NCBI GenBank assembly: GCA_020851635.1
Contig: JADZCJ010000118.1
Location: 1 to 64,000 of the forward strand
Source of the DNA: Anaerolineae bacterium
GTDB lineage: Bacteria; Chloroflexota; Anaerolineae; UBA4142; SHND01
Direction of reading: 5' to 3'
Length of the DNA stretch: 64,000 bases
The translations under genes and the position numbers were made by a program. This document shows, one piece after another, positions 10,454-52,065 of the stretch (position 1 is its first letter; each line of letters opens with the position of its first letter). The notes below the pieces were generated by a model, which did not search any database, was not told where the DNA came from, and saw nothing but the letters and a program-made list of their open reading frames with translations.

Positions 10454-11473
10454 TTACAGGTTGATTTGTTTGCGAAAGACCGCGGTGGAGCGGACTTGGC
10501 GGTACCCTACTTTTTCGTACAGGTGAAAGGCGCCGGTCGCGTTTTCGGTGTCCACGCCGAGAGCTGTATGGTCAAACCCCATTTCGCGGAACATTTTCAT
10601 GCTCTTGACGAGCAGCGCTTGCGCGATCCCGCGGCCGCGCCACGGTTTGCGAACGCCGATATTTTCGGTATAACCGCGTTTGTAATTGTATTTTTCATTT
10701 TCGAGCGCCTCTACATAATTCAAGACCATGCCGACGATTTGATCGCCCTCCCACGCGACTTGCCATAGATCAGAATTCCAGCGCGGGTTATTGGCAAAAC
10801 GTTGATAATCGCTCTCGTCTTCGACGACTCGGCCCCAATGTTCGGAAAACGCCTCCCCGTCGGCATCCCAGATCGCGCGCCATTGTTCGCGATGGACGAG
10901 ACGGGTCTCGATTCCGGGTGGCAGCTCGAGGTTGGGAATGTTGTCGAGATTGGAACACACCATGTCGGCAAGGTAACGGACGGGTTGATACTCATTTTTC
11001 TGAACCAATGTCTGAAGCCAAGTCTGCGAATCGGCTACAGAGAGCTCGTACCAGTGCGTGAAATGTTGCGGATTTTGCATGGCGTAGGATCGCTGGCGTT
11101 CTTTGGTCGCTCGCAAAAGCTCGTCCTCTACACCCCGGCCGCGCCATTCCGGCAAAACAAATATCCATTGAAAATACACGAATGATTCGTCCGTTGACTC
11201 TGTCCAGCGGCCATCTGCGTAGCCGACCAATTCTGCATCCCGCTCGATTAGCAAAAGGTCGTTGGCAGCGTCAAAATTCTTGAGATCCGCATACATCAAG
11301 CGCAAATCGTCACCGGTGCGCGCCTCTTCGAGACCGTCTGCGCCGCGACTTGCGTTCAGGACCACCGCCATGCGCTCAAAATCCCCATCCTCGCGCCAAT
11401 TGCGCAGGGTCAAACCCTGTGCCTCAAGGACAGGTGGTAGAGCGGACGCTAATAGTTTGAGAGTTGCAATCAT
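10454..11473 (-). CDS. Two-domain GNAT N-acetyltransferase
   Basis: Both GNAT domains of this 339-residue protein keep an acetyl-CoA loop: VLPEWRGRGVEDELL in the N-terminal half and VRKPWRGRGIAQALL in the C-terminal half, followed by VDTENATGAFHLYEKVG. This differs from the paralogues at 2034 and 9394, where only the C-terminal loop is intact, and may mean two active sites. The start has GGAGG six bases upstream, the best ribosome site among the two-domain GNAT genes. It is closest to the next gene upstream (11501-12517), separated by 27 bases, so the pair looks like a tandem duplication. Confidence 0.84.
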   Translation of the reverse strand: MIATLKLLASALPPVLEAQGLTLRNWREDGDFERMAVVLNASRGADGLEEARTGDDLRLMYADLKNFDAANDLLLIERDAELVGYADGRWTESTDESFVYFQWIFVLPEWRGRGVEDELLRATKERQRSYAMQNPQHFTHWYELSVADSQTWLQTLVQKNEYQPVRYLADMVCSNLDNIPNLELPPGIETRLVHREQWRAIWDADGEAFSEHWGRVVEDESDYQRFANNPRWNSDLWQVAWEGDQIVGMVLNYVEALENEKYNYKRGYTENIGVRKPWRGRGIAQALLVKSMKMFREMGFDHTALGVDTENATGAFHLYEKVGYRQVRSTAVFRKQINL

Positions 11474-11500
11474 GGGTCACCTCCAAGAGATGCGTTAGGG

Positions 11501-12517
11501 TCAAACCTGAAAAGCCTTGCGGTATGCGGTCATTGTGCGGATGGGACGGTAGCCCAGTTTCCCGTAGAGTTTGAGCGCTCCCGTTCCATTTTCGGTATCT
11601 ACTTCGAGGGCAGCTTCGGTCATGCCCAGTTCTCGAAATTGTCGCAGCCCACGCGCAATCAGCGCCTGTGCCAGTCCGCGCCCGCGATACGCTTTCAACG
11701 TTGCGATGTCTTCGGTAAAGCCGCGCTTGCGGTTGTAGAGGGCGTTATCCTCCGCGTCCACGGTATTTAGAACAACAGCGACTACCCGGTTGCCGTCCCA
11801 GGCGATCTGCCACAAATCATGGCGTGTGGACGGTCGCTTGAGCCAGAGTTCGTATGCCTCGTCCGTGTGCTCGGTTTCGCCCCAATGTTCGCTAAAAGCG
11901 TCAATCATCGAGAGCCAAATCGCATGCAAATGACCCGGCTCGACGGCGCGAACCTCGATGCCATCGGGCAGCGGCGCGCCCGGAATGTCACCAAGATTGG
12001 GACGCAGCATCGTATAAAAGTAACGGACCGGCGCGTACCCCTCCTGTTCCAGCAAATGTGTGAGGTCCCTCTGTAGATTGTCGAGAAATACCTGAAACGC
12101 CTTTGGCGCTTGCGCCGGATGTGTTGCCGCAATTTCGCGCAGGACTTGCTCGCTGTGGCGAATCATTGCCAGTCCGATGCCGCGCTTTTTATACTCGGGC
12201 AGGACAGAGCCGTGATGGTTATAGCAATATTGTCCGACGGCTTCGGGATAGCCGCGCAATGTTTTGTACGCCACCGCCTCGCCCGCTGCCTCCACCAGAA
12301 ACACGCCGCGCTTGATATCCATGTTTGGCATGGTTTCCAGATTGGACTTGAGGTCGTCCGCCGAGATGGATTCTTCGATCCCCAGCGAATGTCTGTCGGC
12401 ATGAACGATGCGGCGCATTTTTTCATAGTCCGAATCGTCACGCCAGCCGCGCAAGGCGAAACCTGCGGGCAAGCCGGCAGGCGCAAAAGTGACTGCTCCC
12501 GTAATGTTCTGGTTCAT
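11501..12517 (-). CDS. Two-domain GNAT N-acetyltransferase
   Basis: This is a 338-residue tandem GNAT protein. The N-terminal loop is VLPEYKKRGIGLAMI and the C-terminal loop TLKAYRGRGLAQALI, followed by VDTENGTGALKLYGKLG. The shared order and the conserved WGE/DLWQIAWDGN region show that it and the 10454-11473 product are recent paralogues relative to the other two-domain copies. GGGAGC lies seven bases before the ATG. It follows the last RimL-type gene by 30 bases in the same operon. The substrate is not predictable. Confidence 0.84.
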   Translation of the reverse strand: MNQNITGAVTFAPAGLPAGFALRGWRDDSDYEKMRRIVHADRHSLGIEESISADDLKSNLETMPNMDIKRGVFLVEAAGEAVAYKTLRGYPEAVGQYCYNHHGSVLPEYKKRGIGLAMIRHSEQVLREIAATHPAQAPKAFQVFLDNLQRDLTHLLEQEGYAPVRYFYTMLRPNLGDIPGAPLPDGIEVRAVEPGHLHAIWLSMIDAFSEHWGETEHTDEAYELWLKRPSTRHDLWQIAWDGNRVVAVVLNTVDAEDNALYNRKRGFTEDIATLKAYRGRGLAQALIARGLRQFRELGMTEAALEVDTENGTGALKLYGKLGYRPIRTMTAYRKAFQV

Positions 12518-12547
12518 GGCAGATGCTCCCGTTGTCCTGTGAATAAA

Positions 12548-13102
12548 TCAGTCATGTTCTTGGCGTGCTTGCCATTCGCTCCGCAGGATGCCCATTGAAA
12601 CGAGGTCCTCTCGCTTGCCGCCGCGGTGTTCGGTGCCGCGTGTTCCACCTTCGTGGACAAAGCCGACCTTGACATACGAGCGGATGGCTGGCGTGTTGGT
12701 GCTGACGGCGTCCAGTGAGACGCGGTGCAGGTTCAGTTCGAGAAACGCAAAACGCAGAACTACGTTCATGGCGTCACTGCCGTAGCCCTTGCCGCGATAC
12801 TCGCCATCGCCAATTCCGATTCCGACAAAGGCATCGCCCTGCACATGATCCACATGCATCAAAACGACAAAACCAATCAGCTTGTCATCATTGAGCGTGC
12901 GGACGCCAAAGGGATAAAATTTAGGGTTTAGCTCGCGCTCGACCATTTTGCGAACGGCTCGGCGGTCCGGTGGCGTCACCGGCTCGACCGACAAGAGACG
13001 GTTATAGTGCGTGTCCCGATCCCAACCGGCAATCGTCTCAACGTCGCGCTCATCCCGGGCAGTCAGGCGCACCAATTTCCCTCTCAACAGATGCTCATGC
13101 AT
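12548..13102 (-). CDS. RimJ/RimL-type GNAT N-acetyltransferase
   Basis: This 184-residue single-domain acetyltransferase belongs to the RimJ/RimL branch, which includes acetylases of ribosomal protein N-termini and antibiotic-modifying enzymes. It has the acetyl-CoA loop GEYRGKGYGSDAM (about 106-118) and the branch-typical LNLHRVSLDAVSTNTPAIRS segment. ATG 13102 overlaps the end of the preceding gene by eight bases (ATGCATGA), so the two are translationally coupled. It shares a nearly identical C-terminus (VSMGILRSEW) with the product of 13095-13658, showing that the two arose by duplication. Confidence 0.85.
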   Translation of the reverse strand: MHEHLLRGKLVRLTARDERDVETIAGWDRDTHYNRLLSVEPVTPPDRRAVRKMVERELNPKFYPFGVRTLNDDKLIGFVVLMHVDHVQGDAFVGIGIGDGEYRGKGYGSDAMNVVLRFAFLELNLHRVSLDAVSTNTPAIRSYVKVGFVHEGGTRGTEHRGGKREDLVSMGILRSEWQARQEHD

Positions 13103-45679: not shown

Positions 45680-46052
45680 CCGTGCCGCTTCGCGAGATTC
45701 GCGCGAGTCCCGGCGGTGACTGTGCTTTTGATTACTCTGGTAACAATGCCCGAACACCCTCGCTTCACCCGATCCCGGCCAGATTCTGTAACGTGGTAAT
45801 TCCCGTTTGTACACTCTATTCCACGTCGCGTCGAGAGAGAGCGCTTGGCTCTCGAACGCACCGTTCCTTGCCCCCATCTGGATTTTTCTGCGTCACGCAG
45901 CACGCTGAGGCAACCACACGCATCCCCCCATCCAACGGGCTTGCCCGCTGGATACGCGACCGCTCCCCGCTCTTGTCCTGTCTCATTCAGGGCGGCGCGC
46001 GGCGGATTTGGTGCGTGTCACGAACGGCAAACTGACAAGGAGAAGGACGCTT

Positions 46053-48980
46053 TTGAACGCTCAATCCAATCCCGTTGAGGGGTCCACCAACTGGCTTCGC
46101 AAACATCCCGGTTCGGCACTGGTCTATTTCGTCGTGCTGCCGCTGATGGCATGCGCGGTGCTGATGCTGCCGCCGATTGCGCTGCCCTCGCGCATTGCAA
46201 ATGCGGGCTATATTGCGGTCAACAGCAAAGGCGCAACGGTCACAGAGGCGGATGGTTTTGAAATCACCATCCCCGAAGACGCGGTGCGGAACGGCACATC
46301 ATTGCGCTTGAGCACAATGTCGCTGGACAATTTCCTGAACAGCGAGCTGGCGCGCACGCTTCCGTTATATCTGGAACCGCGCGGTCCGCTCTATCAGGTT
46401 GCGCTGCAAGGAGAACAGCCGCAAGAAACCAACTTGATCGTGCCCATTCCGTTAGAAATCGAGTCGTTCGATACCATGGACCTGTATGCGCTCTGGAATC
46501 AACGCTGGTTCAAAATTCCGTTCACGATACATGCTGCTGACGAGATTTTGGAAGCAACGTTGAATTTTGCGCCGGAAGCTGTGGTGGTCGTTGACACGCT
46601 GCCGCGCGCGCCGGTGATTGCCGCAAGCATTCCGAACCCCAAGACGCTGCCGGGGGTGGTGGACAATCTGCTGGTGCAGGTGAATCCGCAGGGGCTTGTG
46701 CTGGCGGATGGCGGCGGTATCGCCGGAGAGCCGGTGGCGATGGCAGAAACTAACCTGACCTCGAATTTCTCGGTCCTGCCGACCGTGTCCAACGTGGACG
46801 CAAACGGCGCGCGCACCGACCTGGTTGCCAACATGATGCTTGACGATGTCCAGCGGACCACACACATTGACGCGCTGGTGGACCTTGCGGTTCAAAAAGT
46901 GTATCGCGGGTATAACCTGTCGTACGAAGGCATCCCGTCGGGCGATCAAGAGCTCTTTACGGCGTTTGTCAGAGAGTTGGCGCGTGAATTACATGCGAAA
47001 CAGAAAATTCTGAGCGTCACCTTGCCCGCGCCCACACCGATTTCCGAGGTTGAATTTGACACCGGCGGATACAACTGGGCTTTGATCGGGCGCTATGCGG
47101 ACGAGGTGAAAATTTCGCTGTTGGACGACCCGCGGGCGTTTGAAGGCGAACCGAACTTGCAGGACCAATACCTCAAATGGGCGGTGTCGCAGATTGACCG
47201 CAGCAAACTGCAGCTTGTCCTTGCGACGCAGGGGCGCGACAGCACCGCAGATACATACGTGCCGGTCGCGTTTGGGCAGGCGCTCAAGTTGGTGGGCGCG
47301 GTGACTGTTCCGCCCGATGCCGCGCCCGGCACTCGGGTCACGCTCGAACTGGAAGGGCTGGCAAAGGCGGGCGGGATTCAAACGCACCCGGAGAGTGGTC
47401 TGTTTTACTTTAACTATTCGGATAACAATGGCGCCCAGCATACGGTCTGGCTCGAAAACGCCGACTCGGTTGCGAAAAAGATTGCGCTGGCGCTGCACTA
47501 TAATCTGGGTGGGGTGGCGCTGACCGATTTTAATGCTGATTCGGGCATGGATGCGCGCATCTGGACGGTGCTGGAGAATTATCGTTCGATGCAGCCGACA
47601 ATTGTCGAGAATCAACTGCAGTTGGTCTGGAGCGTTGACAACAATCAGATTGGGACGTCTCCCGTAAGTGATCCGAAAATGATTTGGAACGCGCCGCAAG
47701 ACGGTGGACAGCACCAAATTCAAGTCGCGCTCTCGGTAGACGGCGGCGTGACAGCCGGCGCGCCCGTGGGCAGTGTGGTCAAGTTGGCGCAAGCTGCAGC
47801 CCCGACTCCCGTTCCACCTACGGCAGAGCCGACACAAGACGCGCCCGAACCTACGGCGCGGCCCTCCAATGCGAACACTCAATCACAGCCAACGACTGTA
47901 ACGCCGGTAGAAGAGCCGACTCGCAAGCCCGTGCCTTCACCGTCTGTAGGCGGCAACTTTGGCGGGCAGAACTTGTTTAACTATGGCATCCAGATTGACT
48001 GGACGAGCAAAGACCGTGACGTCGAGCTGAGTCAAGTGCAGAACATGGGTTTTCGCTGGGTCAAAGTCCAGGTCCGTTGGTGTGATATGGAATCGGGCAA
48101 GGGGCAAGCGGACTTGAGCGGACCCGACGATATTGTCAATCGCGCAAATGCGCGCGGCATCAAAGTCCTGTTTAGCGTACTGTGCGCCCCCGAATGGTCG
48201 CGCTCGGTGCATCAAGGTGAAGGTCCGCCCGATAACATGCAGGATGCGGCTGACTTTTTCGCAGGTCTGGCGAGCCGCTATTGCAACACCGCATTGGGCG
48301 CCATTGAAGTATGGAACGAAGAGAACTTGCAGCGTGAATGGAACGGCGCGCCCCTGTCAGCCGCGCGATATATGGACATGTTGAAAGCGGTTTATCCCGC
48401 GATGAAGAATGCGTGCCCTTCCATCGTGGTTGTTTCGGGCGCGATGACGCCAACGGGTTGGAATGACGGGGTCGTGGCAATTGATGATATTCAATATCTC
48501 GAACAGCTGTATCAGAACGGGCTAAAGGACTTTTCGGACGCCATCGGGGCACATCCGAGCGGCTATAATGTGCCCGCGCTGTGCAATATCACGGACCCGG
48601 CATGCAATCGTCCCGAAGCGTCGTTCCGTTCGCCGTTTGATAATCGTCACCCAAGTTGGAGTTTTCTCTCGACGATGACGGGATATCGCAGTGTGATGGC
48701 ACGACATGGAGACAACAACAAGCAGATTTGGGCGACCGAGTTTGGATGGCCCACGCATACCGGCGGCAGCTGTGGCGGTGGTCCCTGTCATCCTGCCGGA
48801 GCTGACAATTCGCCCGAACAGGCAGGGCAGTGGTATGTGGAAGCGTATCAATGGGGCAAGCAGCAAGGATGGGTCGGGGTAATGATCGCCTGGCAGCTCG
48901 ACTTTGACCGGGGCGAACTGGATGCGTTCCGCATTCTCGGCAAACCGGCGTATGATATGCTGGCAGGGATGCCCAAGTAG
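46053..48980 (+). CDS. Large surface protein: GH18-like domain plus GH39/GH5-like hydrolase
   Basis: With TTG 46053 (AAGGA six bases upstream) the protein has 975 residues. One membrane span near 20-45 anchors it or exports it. The first 580 residues are beta-rich with a TIM-barrel-like segment (YNWALIGRYADEVKISLLDD and the LVLATQG strand) related to GH18 proteins. A Pro/Thr-rich linker (about 587-635) leads to a glycosidase-like domain (about 640-975) with the proton donor in EVWNEEN and the nucleophile in WATEFGWPT, the clan-A pattern also seen in PslG-like GH39. It probably cleaves a polysaccharide at the cell surface; the substrate is unknown. Confidence 0.8.
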   Translation: MNAQSNPVEGSTNWLRKHPGSALVYFVVLPLMACAVLMLPPIALPSRIANAGYIAVNSKGATVTEADGFEITIPEDAVRNGTSLRLSTMSLDNFLNSELARTLPLYLEPRGPLYQVALQGEQPQETNLIVPIPLEIESFDTMDLYALWNQRWFKIPFTIHAADEILEATLNFAPEAVVVVDTLPRAPVIAASIPNPKTLPGVVDNLLVQVNPQGLVLADGGGIAGEPVAMAETNLTSNFSVLPTVSNVDANGARTDLVANMMLDDVQRTTHIDALVDLAVQKVYRGYNLSYEGIPSGDQELFTAFVRELARELHAKQKILSVTLPAPTPISEVEFDTGGYNWALIGRYADEVKISLLDDPRAFEGEPNLQDQYLKWAVSQIDRSKLQLVLATQGRDSTADTYVPVAFGQALKLVGAVTVPPDAAPGTRVTLELEGLAKAGGIQTHPESGLFYFNYSDNNGAQHTVWLENADSVAKKIALALHYNLGGVALTDFNADSGMDARIWTVLENYRSMQPTIVENQLQLVWSVDNNQIGTSPVSDPKMIWNAPQDGGQHQIQVALSVDGGVTAGAPVGSVVKLAQAAAPTPVPPTAEPTQDAPEPTARPSNANTQSQPTTVTPVEEPTRKPVPSPSVGGNFGGQNLFNYGIQIDWTSKDRDVELSQVQNMGFRWVKVQVRWCDMESGKGQADLSGPDDIVNRANARGIKVLFSVLCAPEWSRSVHQGEGPPDNMQDAADFFAGLASRYCNTALGAIEVWNEENLQREWNGAPLSAARYMDMLKAVYPAMKNACPSIVVVSGAMTPTGWNDGVVAIDDIQYLEQLYQNGLKDFSDAIGAHPSGYNVPALCNITDPACNRPEASFRSPFDNRHPSWSFLSTMTGYRSVMARHGDNNKQIWATEFGWPTHTGGSCGGGPCHPAGADNSPEQAGQWYVEAYQWGKQQGWVGVMIAWQLDFDRGELDAFRILGKPAYDMLAGMPK

Positions 48981-49053: not shown

Positions 49054-50553
49054 ATGCGATATTCTAATCTGTTTGCCAAAACGAAACGAGATGCTCCCGC
49101 TGACATTACGGATGAGACGCTGAGGTTGGCATACCGCGCGGGGCTGATTCGCCCGGTGGAGCACGGACAGCTTGTATATTTGCCGCTTGCGGCAAATGTG
49201 ATTTCACAGATGCATTTGATGCTGCGCGGTGATCTGCGACAACTGGGCGCGCAAGAATTGAACGGTGTGCCGCAGATTCAGCTCGACGGGATTGCGTCGG
49301 CAGAAATTCAATCCTACAAACAGCTGCCTGCGCGCATTTATCGGTCGAGCCAAGGGACGACGCGTTTGCATCTGGCATCGTTGGAGGCGGGTCTGGAGGC
49401 GGCGAAAGAAACGCAAGCAGCATTCGAAAAAATCGCGCGCGATTTCTTTGTATACGCCGGGATTCAACCGCTCGCGGCGCAGGATGTGGCGGGTGCGCGG
49501 ATGTGGTATGTGACAGCGCCCCAGCGCGATGTCGAAATTTTCAAGAGTGGTGGGTACGCAGCAACGAGGGCGGCGGCGACCCCGTTCAAGCCGCCTGCGC
49601 CCGCCGAAGCGCTCCTCGAATGTCAATTGGTCGAGACGCCGCACTGTGACACGATCGAGTCGCTGGCACAATATCTGCAAGTACCGACGAGCAGGACTGC
49701 CAAGGCGATTTTTTATGCATCCGGGGACCGGACCATTTTTGCGGTCGTGCGCGGGGATTTGCAGATTGACGAGAATAAAATAAAGCGCGCGCTCGGCGTG
49801 GACACTCTGCGCTGGGCGACGGACGAGGAAATTGCGCGAGTCGGCGCAGTGCCGGGCTATGCGTCACCGGTCGGCACGCGCGGGGCGACAATCATTGTGG
49901 ATGATTCGGTCGCCAATTCACCCAATCTGGTCGCGGGCGCGAACCGGGAGGGCTACCATCTGTTGAACACGAATGTGCCGCGCGATTTCAAGCCCGATGT
50001 GATAACGGATCTCGCGTTGGCGCGGGTGGGGGACCCGGCTCCCGACGGGAGTGGAACGCTCGAGCTGACGCGGGGGACCGAATTGGGAATATTGACGCCG
50101 CCACGCTTGCTCGACGCAAATTTCCTCGACATGAATGGCAAGGCACAAAAGCAAATTGCCGTGACAATGGAACTGGATTTTGGCGCGATTTTGCTAGCTC
50201 ACCTCGCCGCGCATCATGACGAGCGAGGAATCACCTGGTCGCGGGCATTGGCGCCGTATGACGTGTATGTTGTGGCACTCAATGCCGACAAACCCGAGGT
50301 CGCGCCGGTGTTGGAAAAAGTGAATGATGCGATTTCGCTGGCAGGTCTGGAAGCGTTTGTGGATGACCGCAGCGAAAGCGCGGGCGTCAAATTCAACGAC
50401 GCCGATTTGATCGGTTTGCCCCTTCGCATCACGGTGGGTCCCAAGACGGTCGCGCAGAATGGCATCGAGCTCAAGGCGCGGGGTGAGGCGGAGGCGCGGC
50501 TGGTGGCGATTGACCAGTTGGGGGCAGAATTGGACAAGTGGATTGGGATTTGA
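49054..50553 (+). CDS. ProRS-like protein: editing domain kept, synthetase motifs lost
   Basis: This 499-residue protein aligns with bacterial prolyl-tRNA synthetase from end to end but is about 70 residues short. The INS editing domain (about 185-325) looks intact, with Lys217 in RTAKAIF, GAVPGYASPVG and NLVAGAN. The anticodon-binding domain (about 398-499) is also recognisable. The catalytic core is not: the motif-2 region with its FRDE and REF blocks is missing after residue 95, the GHIF-LGTKYS strand reads GILTPPRLL, and motif 3 (MELDFGAILLAHLAAHHDE) lacks its arginine. It may act as a tRNA-editing or tRNA-binding factor. A genuine ProRS must exist elsewhere. Confidence 0.8.
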   Translation: MRYSNLFAKTKRDAPADITDETLRLAYRAGLIRPVEHGQLVYLPLAANVISQMHLMLRGDLRQLGAQELNGVPQIQLDGIASAEIQSYKQLPARIYRSSQGTTRLHLASLEAGLEAAKETQAAFEKIARDFFVYAGIQPLAAQDVAGARMWYVTAPQRDVEIFKSGGYAATRAAATPFKPPAPAEALLECQLVETPHCDTIESLAQYLQVPTSRTAKAIFYASGDRTIFAVVRGDLQIDENKIKRALGVDTLRWATDEEIARVGAVPGYASPVGTRGATIIVDDSVANSPNLVAGANREGYHLLNTNVPRDFKPDVITDLALARVGDPAPDGSGTLELTRGTELGILTPPRLLDANFLDMNGKAQKQIAVTMELDFGAILLAHLAAHHDERGITWSRALAPYDVYVVALNADKPEVAPVLEKVNDAISLAGLEAFVDDRSESAGVKFNDADLIGLPLRITVGPKTVAQNGIELKARGEAEARLVAIDQLGAELDKWIGI

Positions 50554-51131
50554 TGCTGCGGATCATCATCGTCGCAGTTTTGGGGTTGATGACGTGGGTC
50601 GGGATTCACTCGGTGTGGACGATCAATGTCGGAACGAATGCGCAGCCGCGCTCTGCGGATGTGGCGATTGTCCTGGGAACGCGGGTTGACCGCAGCGGGA
50701 ACCCGTCGCGCTTGCTGCGCGAACGTCTGGACCGCGCATACGATCTGTTCCGGACTGACATGGCGCGAAATATCATTGTCAGCGGCGGGTTGGGGCGCGA
50801 AGGATATGAGGAAGCCGACGTAATGCGCGAATATCTGATCCGGCGCGGGGTCCCGGGCGAACGGATCGCCGTGGACCGTCAGGGGTATGACACGTACGAG
50901 ACCGCGCGCGGCGCCAAAGCGATTATGGACGCAAAGCATTTTCGCTCGGCGATTGTGGTTTCGCATTACTATCATCTGCCGCGCGCGCTGATTACTCTGG
51001 AACGGTTCGGGGTGCAGGATGTGTCTGCTGCCGCCGTAGAGATTCCTCCGATGTGGCGCGATTCGTTCAACGTCCTGCGCGAGTTTGCCGCATTCTATTT
51101 TTATCTGGTGAGAGATTATGCCGCGACGTAA
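50553..51131 (+). CDS. YdcF/SanA-family (DUF218) membrane-anchored protein
   Basis: This 192-residue protein has an N-terminal membrane span (about 3-20) and a DUF218 domain with DVAIVLGTRV, VSGGLG, EADVMREYL and the VSHYYHLPRALITLE block. Such proteins act at the envelope, possibly on polyprenyl or sugar substrates; the chemistry is not established. Its ATG shares a base with the previous stop (TGATG), and its end overlaps era by 14 bases, so translation of ProRS-like, YdcF and Era is coupled. Confidence 0.85.
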   Translation: MLRIIIVAVLGLMTWVGIHSVWTINVGTNAQPRSADVAIVLGTRVDRSGNPSRLLRERLDRAYDLFRTDMARNIIVSGGLGREGYEEADVMREYLIRRGVPGERIAVDRQGYDTYETARGAKAIMDAKHFRSAIVVSHYYHLPRALITLERFGVQDVSAAAVEIPPMWRDSFNVLREFAAFYFYLVRDYAAT

Positions 51132-52065
51132 AAAACAAGAGGATGGCGAGATTGCGCCGGAAGAGACCGGGTCCGAGTATCGTTCAGGTTTTTGTGTGAT
51201 CGTCGGACGACCGAATGTCGGCAAATCTACTTTGTTGAACTTGTATGTTGGCGTCAAGGTAACCATCGTTTCGGACAAGCCGCAGACCACGCGGCGGGTG
51301 GTGCGCGGGATTTTGACGCTTCCGGAGGCGCAGATTGTGTTTGTGGACACTCCGGGGATTCATCGCCCAATTCACCCGCTCGGCAAATTCATGGTGCGTT
51401 CGGCGCTTGATTCGGTCCAGGATGTGGATGTGGTCGTGTTTGTGGTAGATGGCTCGAAAATGCCGACGCGCGAGGACGAGGACATTGCGGCAATGTTGAA
51501 CGAACGCGTGACCGCGCCGGTGCTGCTGGCGCTCAATAAAATGGACCTGCTCAAGCGCGATGCAATCGGCGAAATTACGCAGGCGTATTTTGACCTTGTC
51601 AAACACGATGATTGGATGCGTATTTCGGCGACGAAAAAGGACAATACGGACAAACTGCTCGAAATGATTGTGGCGCGCTTGCCCGCAGGTCCCGCGCTGT
51701 ATCCGGAACAAGAAATCACCGATATGCCGATGCAGTTTCTGGCGGGGGAACTGGTGCGCGAACAACTGCTCATCAATACACGCCAGGAGGTGCCCCATTC
51801 GATTGCCGTGCAGGTGGATGAGTGGGAGGAACGCTCGCCGCAGTTGACATATATTTCCGCGACGATTTGGGTGGAAAAAGATTCGCAAAAGGCGATTGTG
51901 ATTGGCGAACGCGGGAGTATGTTGAAAAAGGTGGGGCAGGCGGCGCGCAAGGAAATCGAAGCGTGGCTCGGGCACCAGGCATATCTCGAGTTGACGGTCA
52001 AGGTGCGTCAACAGTGGAGGCGCGACAACCGGCTATTGCAAGAGCTGGGGTATGCAGAACAATAG
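51118..52065 (+). CDS. era: GTPase Era, 16S rRNA maturation factor
   Basis: Era binds the 3' end of 16S rRNA and helps 30S assembly. The 315-residue protein has G1 GRPNVGKST (30-38), G3 DTPG (77-80), G4 NKMD (140-143) and a C-terminal KH domain with VIGERGSMLKKVGQAAR. It starts with a charged 20-residue extension (PRRKKQEDGEIAPEE). ATG 51118 lies inside the end of the YdcF gene. Confidence 0.96.
   Translation: MPRRKKQEDGEIAPEETGSEYRSGFCVIVGRPNVGKSTLLNLYVGVKVTIVSDKPQTTRRVVRGILTLPEAQIVFVDTPGIHRPIHPLGKFMVRSALDSVQDVDVVVFVVDGSKMPTREDEDIAAMLNERVTAPVLLALNKMDLLKRDAIGEITQAYFDLVKHDDWMRISATKKDNTDKLLEMIVARLPAGPALYPEQEITDMPMQFLAGELVREQLLINTRQEVPHSIAVQVDEWEERSPQLTYISATIWVEKDSQKAIVIGERGSMLKKVGQAARKEIEAWLGHQAYLELTVKVRQQWRRDNRLLQELGYAEQ

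Follow-up and report, generated by a model that had tools for sequence, protein, structure and literature searches.

Does a prolyl-tRNA synthetase (ProRS) that has lost its synthetase motifs, while keeping its editing and anticodon-binding domains, still serve the cell, and in what capacity? The question was raised by a gene at positions 49054-50553 of the window, meaning the whole stretch of DNA analysed (64,000 nucleotides; contig JADZCJ010000118.1 of an Anaerolineae bacterium). The gene starts with ATG and encodes 499 residues, and its product is treated here as a decayed type II ProRS and a proposed stand-alone trans-editing protein. The features of this gene and of its two downstream neighbours lie on the forward (+) strand.

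Domain content and fold

The original prediction of a ProRS paralogue without synthetase motifs, with an INS editing domain and an anticodon-binding domain, was borne out by the open reading frame, Pfam matches and alignment. Two Pfam domains were matched, the INS editing domain (PF04073, tRNA_edit; residues 195-307, 49636-49974; 92.1 bits, cut-off 25.5) and the anticodon-binding domain (PF03129, HGTP_anticodon; residues 403-495, 50260-50538; 58.8 bits, cut-off 21), and no Pfam match to a class II core domain was obtained. Residues 1-160 (49054-49533), when aligned with intact ProRSs of the class, proved to be what is left of the first part of the class II synthetic core: the N-terminus and motif 1 region are retained, but motif 2, REF and the TXE loop are gone. 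The later core segment (residues 311-395, 49984-50238) has lost the GHIF-LGTKYS strand and the motif 3 arginine. In comparison with intact type II ProRSs from its own order and class, MTHEEV, TKFRDEPR, RVREF, MGG..HEFM, GHIFKLGTKYS and the motif 3 arginine were all absent, and ~70 residues of the synthetic core were missing. Both NCBIfam models of type II ProRS scored below cut-off (TIGR00409, 202.8 vs 306.7; NF006625, 276.3 vs 558).

Signature residues were counted as 1 of 11 catalytic and 7 of 7 in the INS domain. Lys217 (49702-49704) aligned with the INS catalytic lysine, K279 in E. coli ProRS. Together with the GAVPG loop (Gly264-Gly268; 49843-49857) and with GAN (295-297) and His302 of the GAN...YH block (residues 295-302, 49936-49959), it was invariant across the aligned relatives. 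The anticodon-binding domain carries the conserved DDR.ESAGVKFNDADLIG block, which is also retained in decayed homologues.

The domain order of a functional type II ProRS was met, with INS between the positions of motifs 2 and 3, a C-terminal anticodon domain and a ProRS fold. Structure prediction, which had been proposed as a check, gave an AlphaFold2 model of high confidence (mean pLDDT 92.5, pTM 0.85) that aligned over its whole length with Enterococcus faecalis ProRS (2j3l; Z 37.5, 498 residues); the class II scaffold is thus predicted to persist with its active site stripped. The nearest solved structures were INS-bearing bacterial ProRSs (2j3l, 5znj), and the closest PDB relative of the INS domain alone was likewise a ProRS INS, not YbaK or ProXp. 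Judged by sequence, the protein is a homologue of type II ProRS that fails the tests for a working synthetase; that it does not activate proline is inferred.

Proline charging and other editors in the source genome

The source genome (5.8 Mb, 97.7% complete) was searched for another proS. The sole other ProRS was a complete 478-residue type I (archaeal/eukaryotic-type) enzyme without INS (TIGR00408, 536.9 bits, cut-off 437), and no type II ProRS above the model cut-off was found in the 97.7% of the genome that is represented. The absence of any other proS, which would have told against the original prediction, therefore does not hold, and the possibility that the 499-residue protein was the sole, odd ProRS of the organism was rejected. 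The tRNA(Pro) genes with UGG and CGG anticodons carry the bacterial-type C1:G72 pair and A73. Formation of Ala-tRNA(Pro) is established for other ProRSs; for the present type I enzyme, which lacks INS, it is inferred.

Two small INS proteins were encoded besides the 499-residue protein, one nearest YbaK and the other nearest TTHA1699 (2cx5), which serves as the ProXp-x reference (PMC11295145). Neither ProXp-ala nor any third small INS protein was found in the genome. With only a YbaK and a ProXp-x relative present, the Ala-tRNA(Pro) step would otherwise be uncovered.

Selection and gene neighbourhood within the genus

A full-length, stop-free orthologue was present in 6/6 congeners at 66-75% identity. 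Assembly error was ruled out, as six genomes show an identical gene structure. Across the six species, at approximately one synonymous change per site, dN/dS was 0.18 for the whole gene, 0.11 for the INS domain, 0.14 for the anticodon domain and 0.30 for the core remnant; the value for their type I ProRS was 0.12. The editing domain is therefore under constraint equal to that of an essential synthetase, and the old core is under looser, still purifying, selection.

The gene is followed by a DUF218 (SanA/YdcF-like) gene (50553-51131), whose ATG overlaps the stop codon before it by one base (TGATG), and by the era GTPase gene identified by Pfam (51118-52065). Both adjoin the decayed gene in 6/6 congeners. 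The proposed coupling to ydcF and era was thus upheld as linkage, with a correction of name: the DUF218 protein is nearer SanA than YdcF, and scores below the SanA model cut-off. Upstream, window positions 46008-48980 encode an unidentified large secreted-looking protein of 990 residues, which is the neighbour in 6/6 congeners as well. The conserved DUF218/era linkage gives no functional clue.

Distribution of decayed type II ProRSs in Anaerolineae

Of 298 genomes scanned in the class, 188 had a type I ProRS and 230 matched the type II model. Because the TIGR00409 E-value alone cannot part intact from decayed proteins (one protein, in G025, reached 1e-143 with 7/11 catalytic residues), type II sequences were inspected individually in 189 genomes, 64 without and 125 with type I, and were called intact if at least 10 of 11 catalytic residues were present. 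The type I-bearing sample was partly picked for low scores, and its decayed fraction is not an unbiased estimate. The type II core was intact in 63/64 genomes lacking type I; where type I was present, it was intact in 63/125 and decayed in 62/125 (Fisher p = 2e-13, not corrected for ancestry). The decayed count falls to 61 if G049 is left out, a rejected case in which an in-frame TGA in one assembly is probably a sequence error. The only decayed protein without a type I match (L243 in G263; 9/11 residues) came from a 91%-complete genome, and type I was present in every other examined member of the genus. The 499-residue protein is accordingly no isolated oddity, as decayed type II ProRSs are numerous in the class.

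Decay was graded. In the mildest cases the motifs were mutated in a protein of full length (e.g., L103, L050), intermediate ones were ~500-545 residues with deletions (the source genus, L057, L064, L081), and the most reduced form was a ~400-residue remnant, found in family f29, which includes G046 (L265; a single-contig genome 99% complete), and in G079 (L263), both near-complete genomes. In this ~400-residue form almost the whole class II core is deleted, which leaves a short stretch at the N-terminus, INS and the anticodon domain. While catalytic residues fell to as few as 1/11, the INS Lys, Asp and His were each kept in 62/62 decayed proteins, and the anticodon block DDR.E.AGVKFxDADLIG was nearly intact (mean 5.85/6). 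The loop proline position was variable (P/A/G). In two genomes (G022, 97% complete; G027, 95% complete) the decayed protein was the only PF04073 gene, and it would be the only INS-type editor there.

Several further observations were made during these scans. Two genomes (G274, G154; 98-100% complete) have a type I ProRS and zero PF04073 genes, and apparently lack INS-type proofreading of tRNA(Pro). One genome (G150; 90% complete, 5% contamination) carries two intact type II proteins on long branches (L308, L309) and one type I. A decayed ProRS with 2/11 catalytic residues (L225) was found on JANWYE010000057.1, labelled Chloroflexus sp. SKYG63, a label outside Anaerolineae; either the phenomenon is wider than the class or the contig is mis-binned. 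Scans of named genomes used patterns drawn from INS and the anticodon domain and returned mostly intact ProRSs with few decayed members. No relative of the 499-residue protein was found on viral contigs, and plasmid records gave distant matches only, mostly to ordinary ProRSs.

Repeated origin of decay

A tree of 188 sequences was built from the INS and anticodon-domain columns. It required 19 changes between the intact and decayed states, at least 6 of them forced by the starred branches, and 21 losses when loss was treated as irreversible under a midpoint root. On a smaller, better-modelled tree 11 changes were required, at least 4 of them forced. A phylogenetically independent test of co-occurrence with type I, restricted to well-supported branches, left 6 pairs, of which 2.1 spoke for the association and 0.0 against it (median p 0.5), too few for significance. 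The same retirement of type II ProRS seems to have occurred many times in the class.

In the sister family, type I was present in one genome only (G012), directly after an intact type II gene (L237; C58:9280-10941 and 11152-12564). Such type II/type I tandems, in the same orientation and with type II intact or nearly so, recurred at G012:C58, G205:C88, G101:C99, G282:C16, G177:C19, G066:C245 and others. Early damage to the type II core was seen in one tandem (L118 in G031), the congener of which (G066) is intact. It is as if the type I gene arrived beside the old type II gene, and adjacent pairs look like the starting point of the decay process.

Proposed function and alternatives

The proposal is that the 499-residue protein, formerly the type II ProRS of its lineage, now hydrolyses Ala-tRNA(Pro) in trans; a probability of roughly 80% is assigned to this reading. 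In the proposed scheme, the charging role would have passed to a type I ProRS without an editing domain, and the old enzyme, freed of charging, would have shed the motifs that bind ATP, proline and CCA, with a class II scaffold still carrying the INS hydrolase and the anticodon-binding domain. The anticodon domain would grip tRNA(Pro) in trans through G35/G36, and the INS site would hydrolyse alanine misattached by the type I enzyme. No biochemical evidence is available, and hydrolysis, substrate and choice of tRNA are all inferred. Editing in cis by the INS of ProRS relies on recognition of G35/G36 by the anticodon domain and makes little use of the acceptor stem (PMC3973320); the smallest set to keep is therefore INS with the anticodon domain, and exactly that set was kept. 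The suggestion that the protein is a trans-editing factor for mischarged tRNA-Pro is well supported to this extent, the complete type I proS included. Against it, the class II scaffold could have been kept for some additional role, such as dimerisation or partner binding. In roughly half of the type I-bearing genomes with a type II protein, that protein is intact, and many with type I have no type II, so such an editor is not always needed.

Other readings were weighed against trans-editing of Ala-tRNA(Pro). That the protein is an unusual ProRS still active in charging is suggested by its predicted ProRS-like fold alone; with the motif 2 arginine, REF, TXE and the motif 3 arginine all missing and a complete type I ProRS at hand, this is close to untenable. 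A pseudogene near loss would account for the vanished core motifs and for the type II gene being wholly missing from many type I-bearing genomes. It was nonetheless rejected because the gene is full-length, stop-free and conserved across six species with a dN/dS of 0.18 overall; its neighbours are also conserved, and the protein is kept in many lineages with INS residues unaltered. Decay towards loss is thus very improbable.

A regulator, sensor or scaffold that binds tRNA(Pro), and whose INS domain serves structure or amino-acid sensing and not hydrolysis, would have precedent, as regulatory pseudo-synthetases exist. HisZ and GCN2-like proteins reuse synthetase folds, HisZ is itself encoded in the source genome, and the class II scaffold here is partly kept and predicted to fold. 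INS is under the strongest constraint, however, its catalytic Lys/Asp/His are kept in 62/62 decayed proteins, and the ~400-residue members are nearly without scaffold, yet INS and the anticodon domain stay; such a role is doubtful. The remaining alternative retains trans-editing and changes its substrate, to Cys, Abu, Ser or Thr on tRNA(Pro), or to several of these. The INS of ProRS is alanine-specific, the present INS is nearest to it in the PDB and not to YbaK or ProXp, and in the source genome Cys is already covered by YbaK and a ProXp-x relative is also encoded. On the other hand, amino-acid specificity differs among members of the INS superfamily (PMC11295145), the loop proline position varies, and some genomes have no further INS-type gene. 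Another substrate is possible, though unlikely.

Relation to known systems and implications

Bacterial type II (P-type) ProRSs such as that of E. faecalis share whole-length homology, domain order, the INS catalytic lysine and the anticodon domain with the 499-residue protein, which differs from them in lacking motifs 2 and 3, the TXE loop and ~70 residues and in falling under the family score cut-offs. It passes the PF04073-plus-catalytic-lysine criterion of INS-superfamily trans-editors and fails the single-domain, ~150-180-residue criterion of YbaK and ProXp, being 499 residues long with an anticodon domain. Its proposed job resembles that of ProXp-ala (e.g., Caulobacter crescentus) and other INS trans-editors, namely clearance of Ala-tRNA(Pro) in trans where ProRS lacks INS. 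ProXp-ala reads G72/A73 in the acceptor stem, whereas the present protein has an anticodon domain on the same chain (PMC3973320, PMC11295145). YbaK, a Cys-tRNA(Pro) deacylase of ~160 residues, shares the INS-type fold and lysine; it cannot select a tRNA by itself and gains specificity from the ProRS to which it binds (PMC6344894). Streptomyces ProRSx is likewise a second, diverged ProRS in one genome, but it retains charging activity with an odd tRNA (PMC9437257), whereas the present protein lacks the catalytic motifs.

A stand-alone editor built of an editing domain and an anticodon domain is without known precedent in the INS superfamily, all known members of which besides the INS of ProRS are single-domain, but not beyond it: archaeal ThrRS-ed (Sulfolobus) has a like design, with editing and anticodon-binding domains beside a separate editing-less synthetase (PMC11295145). 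ThrRS-ed derives from another synthetase, and its editing domain is unrelated to INS. No threonyl editing (N2) domain was found in the 499-residue protein, in which only PF04073 and PF03129 were detected, and the Ser-tRNA(Thr) hydrolase model NF011500 matched its anticodon part only (13.7 bits, cut-off 362). No report of a ProRS-derived trans-editor in bacteria or Chloroflexi was found in the open literature.

Taken across the class, it is likely that Anaerolineae many times independently made the displaced type II ProRS, after repeated take-over by type I, into a dedicated proofreader. On this reading, no INS-superfamily protein that edits in trans with a tRNA-reading domain of its own would have been known before; the proteins would select tRNA(Pro) through the anticodon, and some genomes would have no other INS-type editor. 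Genes of this kind may be wrongly labelled proline--tRNA ligase by annotation pipelines. How anticodon recognition in ProRS reaches the distant INS site is described as an open question (PMC3973320), and the decayed proteins are natural separation-of-function enzymes, in which the two domains involved are kept and the rest is shed to a varying degree. The series from intact enzyme to ~400-residue remnant in living species would represent a route from replaced synthetase to proofreader, repeated within one class.
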